Source: Deltaproteobacteria bacterium (GTDB lineage Bacteria > Desulfobacterota > Desulfobacteria > Desulfobacterales > SpSt-501). From it: DNA of 50,278 nt. Positions 3,299 to 12,929 of the stretch are shown here, in pieces. The translations under genes and the position numbers were made by a program. The stretch's first letter is position 1, and every line of letters begins with the position of its first letter. The notes below the pieces were generated by a model, which did no database searches, had not been told where the DNA came from, and was given only the letters and a program-made list of their open reading frames with translations. The DNA lies in NCBI GenBank assembly GCA_016219005.1, contig JACRCN010000030.1, positions 1 to 50,278 on the forward strand, read 5' to 3'.

Positions 3299-3316
3299 TT
3301 ATTTTTTTGCAGATTG

Positions 3317-3570
3317 CTATTCATCTGATGCAGCAGTTTGGTCAATATTTTCGAGCTGCTCGTCTATCCACGCGGTATACCGGGCCATGGCATGGCGGAG
3401 GGTCTCCTCTGACGGCTTGATGTAGTGCCGGTCCATTCCCCAGGCTGTGGCCCAGGATCAAATCCCGATTGATCCTGTCCGCCCCCGCCTCAAGCGTGTC
3501 AGTTTTCAGCGCACGCCGAACGTCCTGCATGGTGATCCCATCAGCCGTGACCGCCAGCAGGTGGGTCCTA
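3317..3570 (-). pseudogene. C-terminal remnant of a phage-type tyrosine recombinase
   Basis: Read on the minus strand, one frame gives a segment with MQDVRRALKTDTLEAGADR and LILGHSLG. The reading then shifts by one base near 3440 and continues as MDRHYIKPSEETLRHAMARY to a TAG at 3317-3319. The LGHSL-G-MD-HYI-PS pattern is the C-terminal catalytic segment of phage-type integrases, with the tyrosine in RHYI. The frame is closed by a stop just upstream, so the N-terminal and core domains are missing. It is a decayed mobile-element gene marking past integration. Identification rests on motif memory. Confidence 0.65.
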
Positions 3571-3875
3571 TATTAGAATCTGTATCCTCTTGCGGATCTG
3601 GTCATTGAAAAAAAGCAGGTCCGGAAGCCCAGCCGCAGGCAGACCGACTTACCGCGCAACAAAAGCAAGGGGTCGGTCGCCGGGCGGAATGAAAAGGTCA
3701 GGCTTCGACGCAGCAACCTTTCCCAGATCAGCCTCCGCTTCAAAATCTACGGCATCAGCCGGGACTGTGGCCATCGAGTGAGCTTATAAGAACAGTCATA
3801 CCAGCCCTCAATTAAGTTCATCTATCCTGTATATATGCAGCACTTTTTCAGCTTGAGGTTTTTGCTGGCAGGCTG
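3571..3875. other. Decayed accessory DNA
   Basis: About 300 bp without an intact gene. The minus strand has a 40-codon frame starting MATVPADAVDFEAEAD near 3775 and ending near 3650. Beyond its stop the same frame continues with protein-like sequence (GLPDLLFFNDQIRKR) towards the integrase remnant. This looks like a broken passenger gene from the same mobile element. I do not recognise the family. Confidence 0.35.
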
Positions 3876-4214
3876 TCAGAGTTTAAGTTCTCTTTCTAAT
3901 CGGTATTTGAAGCCCGCAAAGTTGAACCGATTGCACCGTTCCAGAAGGGTGTCCTTCGATTTGGACCTCTTAAGAGCGGTTCCCTTGAGAATTGCATCTT
4001 CGAGATGTGCACCGCAGAGGAAGGCGCTTCGGAGGTCGGCATCGGAAAGGTTGGTCCATCTGAGGTCGGCTTCCCTCAGGAAGGCGCCCGTGAGATTGGC
4101 TTGCCTCAAGTTGGCCTATGAAAGGGTCGCCCTCTTCAGATTGGCATTTTCGAGGTCGGCATAGCTCAAACCCGCGTTAGGCAGGCATGCTCTCGAAAGG
4201 TTGGCGGATCTCAA
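3876..4214 (-). pseudogene. Pentapeptide-repeat protein remnant with in-frame stop
   Basis: The minus strand encodes consecutive A(D/N)LXX units, for example SYADLENANL, RQANLTGAFL and READLRWTNL. These are the signature of the right-handed beta-helical pentapeptide-repeat family. A TAG at 4116-4118 interrupts the series and no ATG precedes the first half, so the gene is probably inactive. The remaining downstream frame of 77 codons would start at a TTG. The C-terminal part after RSKSKDTLLER departs from the repeat. It begins immediately beyond the stop of the transposase-GspC fusion. Confidence 0.7.
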
Positions 4215-4237
4215 TTTCGGCCTGCAAGCGGCCGCCT

Positions 4238-6121
4238 CTATTTGATGTTGACGTTCAGTGTTTTCATCTGGCCGCGGCGTTCGATCAGAATGGCAAAATC
4301 CCCGCCCAACGCCAGGGCCTGTAAAAGTTCCTCCGCTTTTTCGGGCCTCGTGATCTCCTCGTCGTTCAGGGACTTGACCACGTCTCCGGTCCTCAGGCCG
4401 ATGCGGGCAAGCGGGTTCCCGGGGGCTACGGCGCCCAATCGCAAGCCGTCGGGCTCGCCGTCCTGGAGGTGTTGGGACATGAGTGTTTCCTCTATGAACC
4501 GTCGGGATTCCATCAGCGGTGCGACCGCTTCACGGGAGACATCGAAAGTGAGCGTGCCCTCCTGGTTCTCAGGCAGGTTTGCAGGGAGTGATGGTGTTTC
4601 GTAAGGGTTCAGAAGTGAAGCTGCCTGTACCGGGGGCACTTTGGCCGGCCCGTCCTCCACCGCCAGGCGCCGCCGCTGCCCCCGGTCGGTTTCTATGATG
4701 ATGCTGTTGCGGAGGATCCTGCGGATGACTGCCTTCCCGACGTGTTCATTCTCTCGAAAAATTCCCTGCTCTCGGGTTGTGTTGACATCAATAACGGCGT
4801 AATTCTGCATGGGGTCGCTGGCTACCACCGTTCCAATGAGCTTCAGACCGACATTTTTTTCCGCAACGGGAATTGTAGCGACCGATACCTTTCCGCGCCC
4901 TGAGGCATCCACTGCTTTGGACACCCCGAATAAATTCCGCTCCCAGACCGCATGATAGCCATCGAGGCTCGAAGCTGCGGCCCGCGCATGGCCGATTTCG
5001 GCACCTGCCTCCGGCTGAACGGACGCGTTAGGGCCGTGGTCCGTCTCCGGCCTCTGAGTCTCGAGAAGCTTCGAGGCAATTGTCCACCCGTAGTAGATCA
5101 ACAGACAGACGAGCGCGGCGTTGACGGCGCGGAATATCCATTTTTCCCTGCCTGGAGTCCTTTCGCCCGGTTTTTCGACCCATGGATGCAAGGAGGATGA
5201 GAGAAGTGACACGGCCGGCGGGGGAGCCTCAACTGCCACCGCCGGTTTGGTGTCAATCTTCTCTGCGGTGACCTCTGGCGGCTTCCTGGTCTGGAACGCC
5301 GCGATTGGCGACCGGCTCATGTTAGGAAAACCGGGGAGCTTTGTCTCGGCGTTGTAGCGGGCAAGCCAGGCAGCGAAATCTTTCTGCAGGTCTTTTATTC
5401 TCTGTATATCATCAGAGCGGAAGACCCCGGCCAGGTATTCCGTTCGCACCGTGCGCTCAAAGTTCTCTATAAAGCCGTTTTTTTGCGGCAGCGTACCCTG
5501 GGTTGGCGGGCAAGGCGCGATGCCTTGAGTTTCGAGAAACTTTTGAAACTCGGCTTCGCCGTCGGCGGCGAAGACCATCCCTGGACCGTTTAGGATCGAC
5601 TGCACCACAATCCCGTGTTGCCGGTAGAAGGGGATGGCGTGATCGTCCAGCAGGATTTTCGCTCCGGCGGGGTCTGAGGCTTTTCGAATCAGGGCAAAAG
5701 TCAGGCAGCAGGATGGGTCGATTGCGGCGTGCAGAAATGTTGGCCCGGTCTTTGGAAAGTCCCCGAGGTTGACGATATCCAGGATGAGAAGCGCGCCAGG
5801 CCGGTGGGACTCCATCTGCCGCTCGCGCAGGCATGGATTGAATTTTTCGAGGGCACGCTTCTGCCGGTCGCTGAGATCAACGCCTTCTCTGAGATGGCGG
5901 TCTTCCAGAAAGCTAAGCCGGAGTTCGCGGGTGTGAAGATTATCCTTCAACAGCGTTGATCGAATCGAACTGTCTGAGGCCTCAATTCCTTGCCCCTTCA
6001 GCACGCGGGCCAGACGGAGTATGCCGAGATCCGCGTGCTCCAGCGCGGACGCAAGAACCCTATCCCTCGCCTCGTGGGTGAGGCTTACATTTTTTTTGCT
6101 TCTCCTGCGTGCACGCGCCAT
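4238..6121 (-). CDS. Domesticated IS481-type transposase fused to a GspC-like secretion protein
   Basis: One uninterrupted 627-residue frame from the ATG of MARARRRSKK; a GTG 26 codons upstream is possible, and no strong Shine-Dalgarno decides. Residues 15-75 match the helix-turn-helix part of IS481 transposases (ALEHADLGILRLARVL). Residues 108-280 match the rve/DDE core (LLILDIVNLG, IPFYRQHGI, NGFIENFERT). The first Asp (D115) and the Glu (E219) are present, but the second catalytic Asp aligns with Gly179, so transposition activity is unlikely. After a Pro-rich linker comes one TM helix (about 330-349), then the homology region of GspC (ERNLFGV, VGLKLIGTVVA, about 390-485), then a PDZ domain (about 555-627). 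Predicted topology is cytoplasmic transposase fold with periplasmic HR and PDZ. No other gsp gene is nearby. A membrane-tethered DNA-binding role is conjecture. Confidence 0.85.
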   Translation of the reverse strand: MARARRRSKKNVSLTHEARDRVLASALEHADLGILRLARVLKGQGIEASDSSIRSTLLKDNLHTRELRLSFLEDRHLREGVDLSDRQKRALEKFNPCLRERQMESHRPGALLILDIVNLGDFPKTGPTFLHAAIDPSCCLTFALIRKASDPAGAKILLDDHAIPFYRQHGIVVQSILNGPGMVFAADGEAEFQKFLETQGIAPCPPTQGTLPQKNGFIENFERTVRTEYLAGVFRSDDIQRIKDLQKDFAAWLARYNAETKLPGFPNMSRSPIAAFQTRKPPEVTAEKIDTKPAVAVEAPPPAVSLLSSSLHPWVEKPGERTPGREKWIFRAVNAALVCLLIYYGWTIASKLLETQRPETDHGPNASVQPEAGAEIGHARAAASSLDGYHAVWERNLFGVSKAVDASGRGKVSVATIPVAEKNVGLKLIGTVVASDPMQNYAVIDVNTTREQGIFRENEHVGKAVIRRILRNSIIIETDRGQRRRLAVEDGPAKVPPVQAASLLNPYETPSLPANLPENQEGTLTFDVSREAVAPLMESRRFIEETLMSQHLQDGEPDGLRLGAVAPGNPLARIGLRTGDVVKSLNDEEITRPEKAEELLQALALGGDFAILIERRGQMKTLNVNIK

Positions 6122-6545
6122 TGGTTCAACATGCTGCGGTAATGAGATATAGCATGAACGAAACTGTATCGTAGGTACTAAGATAACACAAAAAAACACA
6201 CAAGAAAGCCGGGAGGTAAAATTAGCTTGCCTCTCGTATTCAGGTTGCCGATATGTCGCCGGTTATGCCACTGTCACCAGTTCATTCGCGTGGGCTTCTC
6301 TTTTATAGATGCTCCGGAGCCTTAAAAAACGAAACCCTCTGGAAGGCGCGCACAAACAAACTGCACGAAAAAATGGCAGAGCCATTGCTGACTCTGCCAA
6401 TATTCCTTGACAACTTACTCCAAGCTATCCGGCCTGCACGCGCTATAATCTACCCACACCGGCATACGCGCTCATCAAACCAGGCCTTTTCGTCTCTTGA
6501 CTGAAGCACTCTTTTTCACCCTGTGAATACATATGCAAGACACCA
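6122..6545. other. Intergenic region upstream of the transposase-GspC gene
   Basis: About 420 bp between two minus-strand genes. It holds an intrinsic terminator for the peroxidase-like gene (6367-6398) and presumably the promoter of the fusion gene. A plus-strand frame of 83 codons at 6253-6504 lacks a ribosome site and overlaps the terminator, so I do not call it a gene. Confidence 0.5.
6367..6398 (-). terminator. Rho-independent terminator of the cytochrome peroxidase-like gene
   Basis: On the minus strand a perfect 7-bp stem GGCAGAG/CTCTGCC with a 10-nt loop is followed by ATTTTTT. It lies about 150 nt past the stop of the gene at 6546-8096 and faces the right way for it. Confidence 0.85.
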
Positions 6546-8096
6546 TCACTTATACGGTGCTGGCGCCTTGGGGGTGTATGTGTCCGTCAACGTTTTCAGG
6601 TAGGCAACGATCGCAGCCTCTTCTTCAATGGTAAGATTCAGGTTCCCAAAGGTTGCGCCTCCTAGACGAGCGCCAAAAGTGGGGCTTCCGGGTTGAAGGG
6701 GGTTGACAAACGCTGGAGCCGGCCAGCAGTTGTTTGCCAAGGCATCCTTTTCCGTCACGACACTATCCGGACATCGCGTCACACCGAATGAGTTCGCCGT
6801 CGCTCCCCCTATTAAACCCGTGTTGTAGAAGTGCACGATGCTCTCCATGCTCTTGAACCAACCGTTATGAGCGTAAGCTTTTATGAAGTCTATGTCTTTG
6901 CGCTTGTCCACGTTGCGCATGGTCGGAGTCTTCTGGAACCCGCGGTGGTCACAGTTTCTTCTAAACCCAATGGCCGTGCATCCACCGTTCGAGTTATCCC
7001 CGTTCACGCCCGTATGGCCCGCAAGCCCCAGGTCGGGATCTATAAATGTTCCATCTTCTTTGAATGTCGGGGGGATCTCCGGGTTTCGGGGCACGCCGAT
7101 GTTGTGGTAGCCGTCATCGGTGTAAAGCTGGCCCAATTCCTCCCCTGTATCAATACCGGGCCTGTCACTGTGACAACCTGCGCACCCTGCGGATTTGCCG
7201 GCGGGATTCAGCGAACTTGTCACTCCATAGAACAAATCATGCCCGAGATTTTCCTGAGCCGTCAGACCGGCTAGAGGGAACTTTTTGTCCGCCTCATTGC
7301 GCAGCGCGATATCGCGCTTGGAGCTGAACGAGTTGAGGTCGGTGGAGGCCTGCCAGGCGCAGACCGCCAGCATAATTCTTTTGAAACTGATGTCGAACGC
7401 CTTCTCCGGGGCGGCCACGTCCGGGGCGCTTATTGCCACCGGGGCCTCGCTGCAATCGATGGGGACTCCCCAGACGAGTTGGTAAAGGGGAGCATATTTT
7501 GCCGACTTGACCTGCTGACAAACGGCTTGCCTCTCAATGTTCTGCTCGACAAGGTTCGGCATAGGATTCAACGCCTGATCCGCCGTCGGCCCTATGAAGG
7601 GGCTGTAATTCGTTTTAAGATCAGCCGGGAGGGCGGTACCGTCGGTAGTAAAAAAGATCTCATCACCGATATGCTTTGTGGCCCCTGCAGGGAAAACTGC
7701 AGAAGCATTACCCTCGGCGCGACCGTTCCAGAAGTTTCCGCCACAGATACCGGGGACACCAAACGGGCAAGGTTTGAAGAGCGGGTCGATGAAGCTCGCA
7801 TAGGCGTTGGTGGGTGGCTTGAGGTTGCCGACCGTGTGCGGGTTGGCACCGGTGATCGCCACTTGATGCAGGTTGACGCCGGAAACGCTTCCCGTCCCGC
7901 CGGTGTCTGGATCGTGGCAGGTGACACACGCCATGCGCGAAGGCGCGGATATTTTGTCAAAGAAGACGAATTTACCCAACTTTTCTATGTTTGTGAGGTT
8001 GGGGCCTGTGTTGCCCGCGGCCTTTGATTGGACGACGGCATACCCAATCACCGCGCACGCCAAAAAAATTGCGATGATAATTTTATTTACTCTCAT
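6546..8096 (-). CDS. Di-haem cytochrome c peroxidase (CcpA/MauG)-family protein
   Basis: A 516-residue exported protein. The first 27 residues form a signal peptide ending near SKAAGN. A first haem site CVTCH lies at 57-61 and a second CAGCH at roughly 310, the two-haem arrangement of bacterial cytochrome c peroxidases and MauG-like enzymes. FVFFDKISA and WNGRAEG around the first site and MRNVDKR after the second fit the family. It is longer than classical CcpA (about 330-350 residues), like the larger MauG-type members. It acts in the periplasm, reducing peroxide or oxidising an unknown partner. It stands alone, with a terminator downstream and palindromes upstream. Family is secure; peroxidase activity is assumed. 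Confidence 0.88.
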   Translation of the reverse strand: MRVNKIIIAIFLACAVIGYAVVQSKAAGNTGPNLTNIEKLGKFVFFDKISAPSRMACVTCHDPDTGGTGSVSGVNLHQVAITGANPHTVGNLKPPTNAYASFIDPLFKPCPFGVPGICGGNFWNGRAEGNASAVFPAGATKHIGDEIFFTTDGTALPADLKTNYSPFIGPTADQALNPMPNLVEQNIERQAVCQQVKSAKYAPLYQLVWGVPIDCSEAPVAISAPDVAAPEKAFDISFKRIMLAVCAWQASTDLNSFSSKRDIALRNEADKKFPLAGLTAQENLGHDLFYGVTSSLNPAGKSAGCAGCHSDRPGIDTGEELGQLYTDDGYHNIGVPRNPEIPPTFKEDGTFIDPDLGLAGHTGVNGDNSNGGCTAIGFRRNCDHRGFQKTPTMRNVDKRKDIDFIKAYAHNGWFKSMESIVHFYNTGLIGGATANSFGVTRCPDSVVTEKDALANNCWPAPAFVNPLQPGSPTFGARLGGATFGNLNLTIEEEAAIVAYLKTLTDTYTPKAPAPYK

Positions 8097-10268: not shown

Positions 10269-10370
10269 GGGCTTACCTTTCTATCTCTTGGGTTTGGAAA
10301 TTTAAGCGCTTGTCAAACCTTTCTTCTTTTGATGGCTCCATGGACTCAAACATGACGTTTCCTCCAACGG

Positions 10371-12929
10371 CTATTTCCCTTTGGCGAGCAAGGGGAGGCG
10401 CCGGAAACGCTTGCCAGTGGCGGCAAAAAGCGCATTGACCACTGCCGGCGCTATGGGAGGGACTCCAGGTTCGCCGACCCCTGTCGGTTTCTCAGTACTT
10501 GGAATAATATGCACTTCGACCGCGGGCATACGATCAAAGCGCAACAGTTGATAGTCGGAGAAGCTCGACTGCTGGACCTCCCCAGCGTCCAGCGTAACGG
10601 CCTCTGCGAGAGCCGCCGATAGACCGAATCCGATACCACCCTCCATCTGGGCCCGAACGATCTCCGGATTGATGGCGACGCCACAGTCGACGGCGCAGAC
10701 CACGCGTTCCACTTCAAATGCCCCGTCACCGGCAACGGACACTTCGGCAACCTGTGCCACGAAGGTGTCAAAGGACTTGTGCACGGCTACACCGCGACTG
10801 CGCCCCGGCGGAAGCGGAAAACCCCAGCCGGCCTTTTCTGCGGCCAAATCCAGCACGCCCTGGTAACGCGGATGACCGGGGAGAAGGGATCGACGGAAAT
10901 CGACAGGATCGCGGCCGGCGGCTCTTGCCAGCTCGTCCAGAAAAACCTCGACGGCAAAGGCGGTATGGGTATGGCCGACCGAACGCCACCAAAGCACCGG
11001 CACCCCTACCTGCTGCGTATGCAGCTCAACTGTCAGGTTGGGTATGGCATAGGGCATGTCCCGTACGCCCTCGACAGATGTTGCGTCGATGCCGTCCTCC
11101 ACCAGCGCACCTTCGAATGGGGTATTCACCAAAACCGATTGCCCCACCAGACGATGATGCCAGGCAGTAAGATTCCCGCGCTCGTCGAGGCCGGCCCGCA
11201 CGCGATGAACGAACATCGGCCGGTAGTAGCCTCCCCTGATATCATCTTCCCGGGTCCAGACGAGGTGGATCGGAGAGCGCCCACCGATGGCTTTGGCCAC
11301 ATGCACGCCTTCCGTGATGTAATCGGACGTGGGGTTGGCCCGCCGGCCAAAGCTGCCTCCCGCAAAGAGCGTATGGATTTGGACCTGCCGGGGATCCAGA
11401 CCGGCGGCGGCCGCGGCGTTGGCCTGATCCACCGTCTGGAACTGGTCGCCCGCCCAAATCTCGCAACCGTTTTCGGAAAGCCGCACGACGCAATTGAGGG
11501 GCTCCAGCGGAGCATGTGCCAGGTACGGAAACTCGAAGGTCGCATCGAGGGTCTGGGCGGCTTTGGCCAAAGCCGCCTCCACGTCCCCGGTTTTCCGAGC
11601 TGCCCGCCCAGGGGTTTCAAGGAGCGCGCGGTATTCGTCCAGCAGTTCGACCGTGCCGCGCATTTCCGCCGCTCTGTCATCCCAGTCGATGCGCAGGGCA
11701 TCGCGGCCGCGCCGGGCCGCCCAGGAGTCGGCGGCGACCACCGCCACGCCCTGCGGAATTTCCACCACGTCGGTGACACCGGGAATCAACCGCGCCTGGG
11801 CCGCGTCAAACGACTTTAGCTTGCCGCCGAAGCGCGGCGGCCGGGCGACCATGGCGGTCAACATGTCCGGCAGTCGCACATCCAAAGCATACCGGGCGGC
11901 TGCCTGTACCTTGACCTCGATGTCGGTCCGTGCCGCCTGCCGGCCGATCAGCTCGAAGGCCTGCGGATCCTTCAGACGCACTTCATTCGGCGGAGTCATG
12001 TCGGAGGCCTTCTGCGCGAGTTCCCCGAAAGTCGCCCGGCGACCGCTCCGGCCATGCGTGACCACGCTTTTTTGCACACCGATCTCCGCAGCCGGAACAC
12101 CCCAGACAGCCGCTGCCGCCGCAATGAGCATTGCGCGAGCCGTCGCGCCGGCCTGCCGGTATTGTTCATAAGAGTTCGCAATGCTGGTGCTGCCGCCCGT
12201 TGCCTGGATGGGTCCAAAAAAAAGATTGCTGTACAATCTCTCGTCGGCCGGAGCGGATTCCACTCGCACCCAACTCCAGTCGGCATCGAGCTCTTCGGCC
12301 AGCAGGGTCGCCAGGCCGGTGTAAATCCCCTGACCCGTCTCAAAATGCTTGGCCAATACCGTCACCACGCCATCCGCGCCGATCCGGACGAAAGGATTGA
12401 GGGCGAAGGTTTCGTCCGGGCTGCTCTTCGAAGAGTTTGCGAAACTCTTTTTCGGGGAAGTTCCTGCTCCGCTCACGGACTGAAGGTGGTTTGCGGCGCG
12501 CTTGACCGCCGTCTCGATGCGGAAGTAGGTGCCGCATCGGCAGAGATTTTTTTGCATGGCCTTGGCGATGTCCGCGTCGCTGGGATCGGGCTTCTCGGAG
12601 AGGAGCGCTACCGCCTGTAGAATCTGACCGGGCTGGCAGTAGCCGCACTGGGGCACCTGCGCCTCGACCCAGGCCCGTTTGACCGGGTGATCCTCGGGAA
12701 CGCCTTCGATCGTGGTTATCTCCTTACCCTCTATTGTCTTGGCCTTGATAGTGCAAGAAGGGCGGGCCTTGCCGGCCACCAGCACGGTGCAGCCCCAACA
12801 CTGGCCCATGCCGCAGCCGAACTTTGTTCCGGTAAGCCCCAGGACATCCCGCAGGACCCAGAGAAGGGGCATTTCCGGATCCACGTCGATGGTGTAGGCT
12901 TGTCGGTTTACGGTCAAGGTCGTCATCAT
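10371..12929 (-). CDS. Single-chain isoquinoline 1-oxidoreductase-type molybdenum hydroxylase (IorA-IorB fusion)
   Basis: An 852-residue protein; the ATG at 12929 follows GGAGGAACGTC. Residues 1-150 are the small [2Fe-2S] subunit, with a plant-type cluster at C39, C44, C47, C59 and the second cluster at C95, C98, C130, C132. After a Ser/Lys-rich linker (about 155-180) the rest is the large molybdopterin subunit of the IorB type: [29 protein letters not shown] and, near the end, [12 protein letters not shown], which contains the active-site Glu. IorA and IorB are usually separate genes, and IorB often carries a Tat signal; here the chain is continuous and no Tat motif is visible at the start. 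The likely job is hydroxylation of a heteroaromatic or aldehyde substrate. No FAD subunit or XdhC-type maturation gene is adjacent. Confidence 0.88.

Follow-up and report, generated by a model that had tools for sequence, protein, structure and literature searches.

GspC (OutC/EpsC/PulC) is an inner-membrane subunit of the type II secretion system (T2SS). In the available text of PMC3169554, the cytoplasmic N-terminus of ordinary GspC is short, and the homology region (HR) of GspC binds GspD N0. The PDZ domain of GspC is, according to the accessible portions of PMC12369372, needed for a subset of substrates and contacts Ig/Fn3 folds. A multicopper protein with Fn3, the OmpB of Geobacter, is reported in the available part of PMC5566968 to be secreted by an atypical T2SS. 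The regulators of the ToxR/CadC type are laid out as a cytoplasmic helix-turn-helix (HTH), one transmembrane (TM) helix and a periplasmic part, as given in the accessible text of PMC9214523.

Here, a gene is described in which a transposase-derived part is joined to a GspC. It lies in the window, by which is meant the whole stretch of 50,278 nucleotides analysed (contig JACRCN010000030.1, positions 1 to 50,278, of the Deltaproteobacteria bacterium assembly GCA_016219005.1). The fusion is real, domesticated and common to a family. An earlier note, made from the letters alone, knew of no described protein with this architecture, and no description of an HTH-rve-TM-GspC-PDZ protein was found in the searchable portion of the open-access full-text literature. 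As far as the searches show, a T2SS subunit whose cytoplasmic domain stems from a transposase and is maintained by selection is new, and the fusion adds an example of a transposase being domesticated as part of a membrane machine.

Domain layout and selection on the inactive core

The gene is one uninterrupted frame of 627 codons and a stop on the minus strand, with its ATG at 6121. Its parts and two neighbouring genes are the following:

4238..6121, minus strand: HTH-rve-TM-GspC(HR)-PDZ fusion gene, 627 aa and stop
5906..6085, minus strand: transposase-type HTH unit, residues 13-72, with helices 16-28, 34-43 and 50-59 in the AF2 model
5330..5809, minus strand: rve/DDE-like core, residues 105-264, D115 and E219 kept, Gly179 (NCBIfam, IS481 alignment, AF2 model)
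5147..5266, minus strand: proline-rich linker, residues 286-325
5063..5119, minus strand: single TM segment, residues 335-353, N-terminus predicted inside by charge
4664..5074, minus strand: T2SSC match including the HR, residues 350-486 (Pfam)
4244..4435, minus strand: PDZ domain (PDZ_2), residues 563-626 (Pfam)
3882..4220, minus strand: HU-pentapeptide remnant directly downstream of the fusion, pentapeptide part only, one in-frame TAG
6546..8096, minus strand: di-haem cytochrome c peroxidase (CCP_MauG), the proposed cargo, 424 bases upstream of the fusion on the same strand

Two Pfam matches in the fusion protein were above the cut-off, T2SSC (E = 7.8e-7) and PDZ_2 (1.8e-6); rve_3 over residues 208-259 (25.2 bits, cut-off 26.5) and HTH_32 over 3-57 (18.9 bits, cut-off 33.7) were below it. 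Of the NCBIfam models, GspC_delta covered residues 328-627 (3.1e-33) and transpos_IS481 residues 5-264 (1.3e-26), both under their curated cut-offs. With 627 open codons and these matches, the single frame of HTH, rve/DDE core, one TM helix, GspC HR and PDZ that the earlier note had read is upheld. So is its claim that D115 and E219 are kept and the second catalytic Asp is Gly179: the triad positions 115/179/219 are D/G/E in the fusion and D/D/E in 10 of 10 aligned IS481 proteins. Gly also replaces the second catalytic Asp in both paralogues of the same genome that have an rve core.

With a 19-residue hydrophobicity window and a mark of 1.6, one hydrophobic segment was found, the best window being at residue 335 (score 1.62), with a flanking net charge of +2 before and -2 after it. 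About 330 residues precede this segment, and the cytoplasmic part of the window protein has a pI of 9.3. By the flanking charge, an N-terminus inside and HR and PDZ outside are supported, and the topology in the cell would follow that order. In an AF2 model of residues 1-288 (mean pLDDT 78.5, pTM 0.60) the HTH has three helices and the core is integrase-like; the rve fold in this model leans on IS481 proteins, since these, with their complete triad, make up ten of the 11 sequences in its alignment. The best Foldseek match of the model was IstA 8b4h (E = 8e-9), and the best VIA-align matches were retroviral integrase cores, led by the STLV intasome 7ouf_B (Z 18.5, rmsd 2.5, 165 aligned). For a relative with two HTH units (L088), the model built on 7 sequences (mean pLDDT 68, pTM 0.27, usable for individual domains only) gave two HTH, a TM helix, an HR-like and a PDZ-like part as separate domains, the PDZ matching that of V. 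cholerae EpsC best (2i4s, E = 2.3e-6).

Purifying selection acts on the inactive rve core. Three copies with an rve core are present in the genome of the window (here the home genome), those of the window and of contigs C49 and C82, and dN/dS was calculated between them with our own Nei-Gojobori script, several dS values being near or past saturation. Between C49 and C82, dN/dS was 0.19 in the rve (dS 0.82), 0.18 in the HR (dS 1.07) and 0.25 in the PDZ (dS 2.15, near saturation). The window copy gave 0.29 and 0.26 in the rve and 0.13 and 0.18 in the HR against C49 and C82, respectively. With a dN/dS of 0.19-0.29 in the rve, the inactive core is therefore maintained by selection. The values for C49 and C82 may be affected by gene conversion between these tandem copies, but at their synonymous distance a recent conversion is less likely. 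The paralogues, the selection on the core, the charge-based topology and the models together support what the earlier note had proposed, a domesticated transposase fold inside and the HR/PDZ outside.

Copies, relatives and phylogeny

A search of the home genome with the fusion gave 8 matches, the window gene itself being one of them. C49:1286-3178 is a full-length copy of 630 residues without inner stops, 46% identical to that of the window. The copy from C82:31465 to near the contig end is cut at residue 546 (residues 5-546), likewise without inner stops and 46% identical. Its remainder is found at the start of C49 through an identical overlap of 141 bases, giving a joined length of 632 residues and therefore the order fusion, HU-pentapeptide gene, fusion, the middle gene being separated from its neighbours by 18 and about 50 bases. 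Identity of the window copy to C49/C82 is 47-49% in the rve, 59-60% in the HR and 39-41% in the PDZ, and C49 and C82 share 73%, 70% and 37% in these parts. Two of the 8 matches make up C60:7040-8455, a copy with HTH and GspC-PDZ but without rve. A remnant on C38 has kept the PDZ, and a second frame of it encodes a stretch resembling the C60 linker; at about 11036-11400 (L020, G000:C38) it appears as an HTH-only fusion pseudogene with linker and PDZ left, flanked by a YtkA-like gene on one side and a multicopper oxidase on the other. The ordinary GspC of the home genome is on C74, within a gsp cluster.

The surveys of other genomes are samples and not a census. A first scan of genome contigs with the window protein as query gave no match, and fusion-type genes of other genomes were first met with the window protein as query in 291 genomes of the order. 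In the class, 389 genomes were searched with a profile of nine fusion-type proteins, three candidates being scored per genome, and six genomes stood at E = 1.3e-138 or better (the home genome, G129, G174, G120, G107 and G059). All six had been in the profile, so the search shows a clear gap and no new member; after the gap came G124 at 9.1e-71 and ordinary GspCs from 1.6e-61. Among 395 genomes of the phylum two passed 1e-60, the home genome and the new G525. A named collection gave seven loci (L088-L094) out of 36 pattern matches. L088 (Desulfobacterales bin36) is G174, L089 (MB3D_Bin_18) is G120, L090 (CSMAG_995) is G107, L091 (bin589) is G059 and L094 (Ww513) is G129; L092 (MASpbin.1) is a new member, and in L093 (bin40), which by eye precedes gspD, no HTH was seen. 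Six congeners of the home genome gave GspC or PDZ matches only and no fusion, and a single query (L088) met no fusion-type protein on plasmids.

The number of HTH units before the GspC varies in the family. One unit each is found in the window, C49, C82, C60 and MASpbin.1, two in G174, three in G129 and four in G120, the last spaced at steps of 76-78 residues. HTH_32 and HTH_21 exceed the Pfam cut-offs in G120, G174 and G129; the unit of MASpbin.1 is weak (E about 0.01), that of G059 is degenerate, and the contigs of G107 and G525 stop short of the HTH unit or within it. HTH_32, HTH_21, HTH_33 and HTH_Tnp_Tc3_2 are the Pfam types met in the window protein and its relatives, none being of the OmpR type. 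With an HTH profile (E ≤ 0.001) only the fusions were matched in the home genome, G174, G120 and G129 (4, 2, 4 and 3 units), other frames were matched in G234 and G273, some of them IS481 transposases, and no match was found in the remaining 8 of the 14 genomes, among them G059, G107, G124 and G525. The rve core was seen only in the three copies of the home genome, and the family is mostly without it. In helix 3 the net charge is 0 in the window, +1 in C82 and +2 in C49, and +1 to +6 in 11 HTH units of HTH-only members, six of them at +4. In most of these members helix 3 has remained basic and (V/I)YxxLKR-like, and as many as four such units stand in a row. The cytoplasmic part of C82 is acidic (pI 6.1).

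A tree of the HR-PDZ part was made from 12 fusion-type rows, including the HTH-less G124 and the cut G107 and G525, and 40 ordinary GspCs, kept from 54 profile matches after removal of transposases, matches missing the region and identical sequences. The 12 fusion-type rows fall on one side of a branch and the 40 ordinary rows on the other, with a support of 100/98; G124 and MASpbin.1 are flagged as long branches and their joining may be false. The four fusions of the home genome form a subclade (100/100) apart from its ordinary GspC, which clusters with GspCs of congeners, and the nearest ordinary row to the fusion clade is L093. This old lineage is therefore distinct from the genome's main gspC, and the comparison with that gene, proposed in the earlier note, places the C74 GspC outside the fusion clade. 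In the assembled sequences, the grounds for rejection that the note had named did not appear: three copies run on without a frame break, and relatives carry HTH and GspC in one gene rather than always in two.

Within the subclade the rve-less C60 is basal to the three rve-bearing copies. The C60 linker retains a residual similarity to the window protein (34% over 35 columns), which hints that the rve might be ancestral and was then lost. Alternatively, the rve may have been gained in the three copies. In a tree of 60 columns from 14 fused and 10 other HTH units, two G273 rows from other frames fall among the fused units; a single clade of fused units has a p-AU of 0.40 and so is not rejected.

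Secretion genes, HU-pentapeptide genes and redox enzymes at the loci

In the window, tblastn with 12 gsp proteins (E ≤ 0.01) matched solely the GspC part of the fusion, in agreement with the statement in the earlier note that no other gsp gene is present. The context in a relative points to the T2SS. In G174 the order is gspF, the GspC with two HTH units, an HU-pentapeptide gene on the opposite strand, and gspG,H,I,J,K,L,M,N,C,D,E, the names being given by eye and confirmed by tblastn to the C74 cluster of the home genome. The two clusters (L050/L021) have 12 gsp homologues in common, arranged alike; in G174 alone, and not in C74, the fusion and the HU-pentapeptide gene are placed between gspF and gspG. 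By eye, the G120 and G107 fusions adjoin an ExeA-like ATPase. The frames at 227-1240 and 1281-2357 of the window, minus strand, resemble tandem paralogues by eye: their N-terminal motifs are Cys-rich and alike, and a stretch resembles GcvH.

The HU-pentapeptide gene has Bac_DNA_binding and pentapeptide repeats in one gene. The window remnant matches residues 157-279 of the complete home-genome copy at 58% identity. At 1e-25, a profile of the gene had some match in at least 141 of 389 genomes (6 candidates scored in each); among the matches listed, most cover the HU part alone or the pentapeptide part alone. Also among the matches listed, the HU part runs well into the next part in one open frame in G174, C49 of the home genome and G154, and all three of these genes are at a fusion or at gspG. 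The G154 gene (L181 9120-9794, G154:C1 about 1280100-1280800, partly masked) is beside gspG in a congener of G174, and tblastn of the stretch around it found no fusion. The HU-pentapeptide gene may belong to the T2SS in its own right. Searches of the open-access literature gave no paper evidently on HU-pentapeptide proteins.

Redox enzymes accompany the fusions of the home genome. Besides the peroxidase of the window, a CCP_MauG gene lies about 390 bases upstream of the C60 fusion on the same strand, the C49 fusion is about 770 bases upstream of an oxidase of 1454 residues with fn3 and Cu-oxidase_2, and the C38 remnant is about 640 bases from an oxidase of 714 residues. The whole home genome contains two CCP_MauG and three Cu-oxidase_2 genes (E ≤ 0.001). 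Four of these five genes adjoin a fusion or remnant; the fifth (C8, Cu-oxidase_2) is not near a fusion and lies in an apparent metal-efflux cluster (by eye). With 4000-4800 genes assumed, and both enzyme families chosen after the neighbours were known, the chance that 4 of 4 fusion loci, the remnant counted, would be beside one of five redox genes is estimated at 3e-10 to 2e-8, and at 7e-8 to 2e-6 for 3 of 3 loci without the remnant. A recent block duplication of fusion and peroxidase is not supported: by BLASTP the two peroxidases are alike over short stretches alone, at E values of 0.12 and above. A common origin is conceivable for the C49 and C38 loci, where the neighbouring oxidases have 29% identity. 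BLASTN of the regions upstream of the fusion genes found nothing convincing as a shared operator.

In the eight other loci the redox linkage is weaker: a multicopper oxidase in G124, a cytochrome b561 adjoining the fusion in G525, and hydrogenase genes nearby in G120 and G129 (by eye). No redox neighbour was seen in G174, G107, G059 and MASpbin.1, the contigs of G107 and MASpbin.1 being 4.4 and 3.5 kb long, and nothing telling was seen by eye around the fusions of G059 and MASpbin.1. In L164 (G124), a fusion-clade GspC without HTH is located at 10326-11321, away from gsp genes and after a multicopper oxidase of 704 residues and one frame of 113 residues.

Proposed working and comparison with known systems

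The evolution and working of the fusion may be depicted as follows. An IS481-like transposase, or its HTH, would have been joined to the N-terminal side of a GspC TM helix. Domestication would have followed, with catalysis lost and the HTH kept, and multiplied in some lineages. The HR would dock on the secretin GspD, and the PDZ would recognise one specific exported cargo, in this case most probably the adjoining large haem or copper oxidoreductase. The cytoplasmic HTH array, or HTH and pseudo-integrase, would bind either DNA itself or a partner seated on DNA, for instance the HU-pentapeptide protein. The state of the secretion machine might then be felt at the cargo locus, as with a membrane-bound regulator of the ToxR/CadC type. 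Either idea of the earlier note, a membrane-tethered regulator or a GspC that recruits something by its new domain, may hold. That the fusion is an alternative, cargo-linked GspC we consider probable. The helix 3 of the rve-bearing copies is low in net positive charge, and therefore DNA binding or regulation by the cytoplasmic part is put at slightly under an even chance, and a scaffold explanation is kept as an unlikely one. The reading as a whole, a cargo-linked GspC whose transposase-derived cytoplasmic part links T2SS engagement to expression of the neighbouring cargo, is evenly balanced between right and wrong. The basic pI of the window's cytoplasmic part counts in its favour; the lack of a convincing common sequence upstream of the fusions, the weaker redox linkage in other genomes, the C8 gene away from any fusion and the fusion-less HU-pentapeptide locus of G154 count against it. 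Its extension to the family, in which HTH arrays with GspC-HR-PDZ and an HU-pentapeptide partner would be secretion-coupled regulators, each for one exported redox enzyme, is put forward tentatively, as less likely than not.

The core folds of rve type often multimerise. In the scaffold explanation, the HTH/rve domain of an alternative GspC would multimerise or dock on GspL/GspE and no longer touch DNA, in keeping with this habit of rve cores, the helix 3 of the window with its low basic charge, the acidic cytoplasmic part of C82 and the nearly equal constraint on HR and rve between C49 and C82. The mostly basic helix 3 of the HTH-only members, with their arrays, and the HU DNA-binding domain in the linked gene speak against it. 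An HTH array on a membrane anchor, an HU-domain partner and cargo-like neighbours might also belong to a nucleoid tether, transertion-like, by which the array would keep the cargo locus near the secretion machine with transcription unchanged; they fit a regulator as well, and we find the tether improbable.

The degenerate partner gene downstream, the C38 pseudogene copy and the sporadic distribution would suit a recent neutral or broken fusion, or a chimera of the assembly. Against this, three open copies lie on two separate stretches of the genome, the rve is constrained and clade members are found in other genomes; by these an assembly chimera is rejected, and the explanation as a whole is very improbable. 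Slighter still is the probability of a relic of an IS481-like element that captured gspC and still mobilises it. Several copies in one genome might suggest such an element, but the second catalytic Asp is lost in 3 of 3 rve-bearing copies, the window copy is only 46% identical to the others, and none of the 4 pairs of inverted repeats in 3300-6900 (at least 14 nt, a minimum that shorter or diverged repeats would escape) has arms on either side of the gene.

If the extension to the family is true, a secretion system would sense how much of its own cargo it carries and act directly on the cargo gene. With a GspC paralogue, a candidate cargo and a DNA-binding-type domain side by side, T2SS cargo choice and feedback from secretion to expression are testable in one locus.

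Among known systems, the OmpB of Geobacter, a T2SS cargo, resembles the neighbour of the C49 fusion as a multicopper oxidase with fn3; a transposase-fused GspC is not reported for the atypical T2SS in the available part of PMC5566968. The fusion is like the IS481 transposases in that its HTH corresponds to their second HTH and its linker and rve core are co-linear with the standalone proteins. It is unlike them in having no first HTH, no second catalytic Asp and no late R-x-H motif, and in being joined to a membrane protein. Like GspC, it has a TM helix, HR and PDZ, but its cytoplasmic part is long and contains the transposase relic, and the window fusion has no gsp operon around it, whereas its relative in G174 does sit among gsp genes. 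The predicted layout of cytoplasmic HTH, one TM helix and periplasmic part fits that of the ToxR/CadC type. The HTH of the fusion is, however, of the transposase type and not an OmpR-type winged HTH, it occurs as arrays in some members, and in place of a CadC/ToxR sensor domain the periplasmic part is a T2SS subunit.
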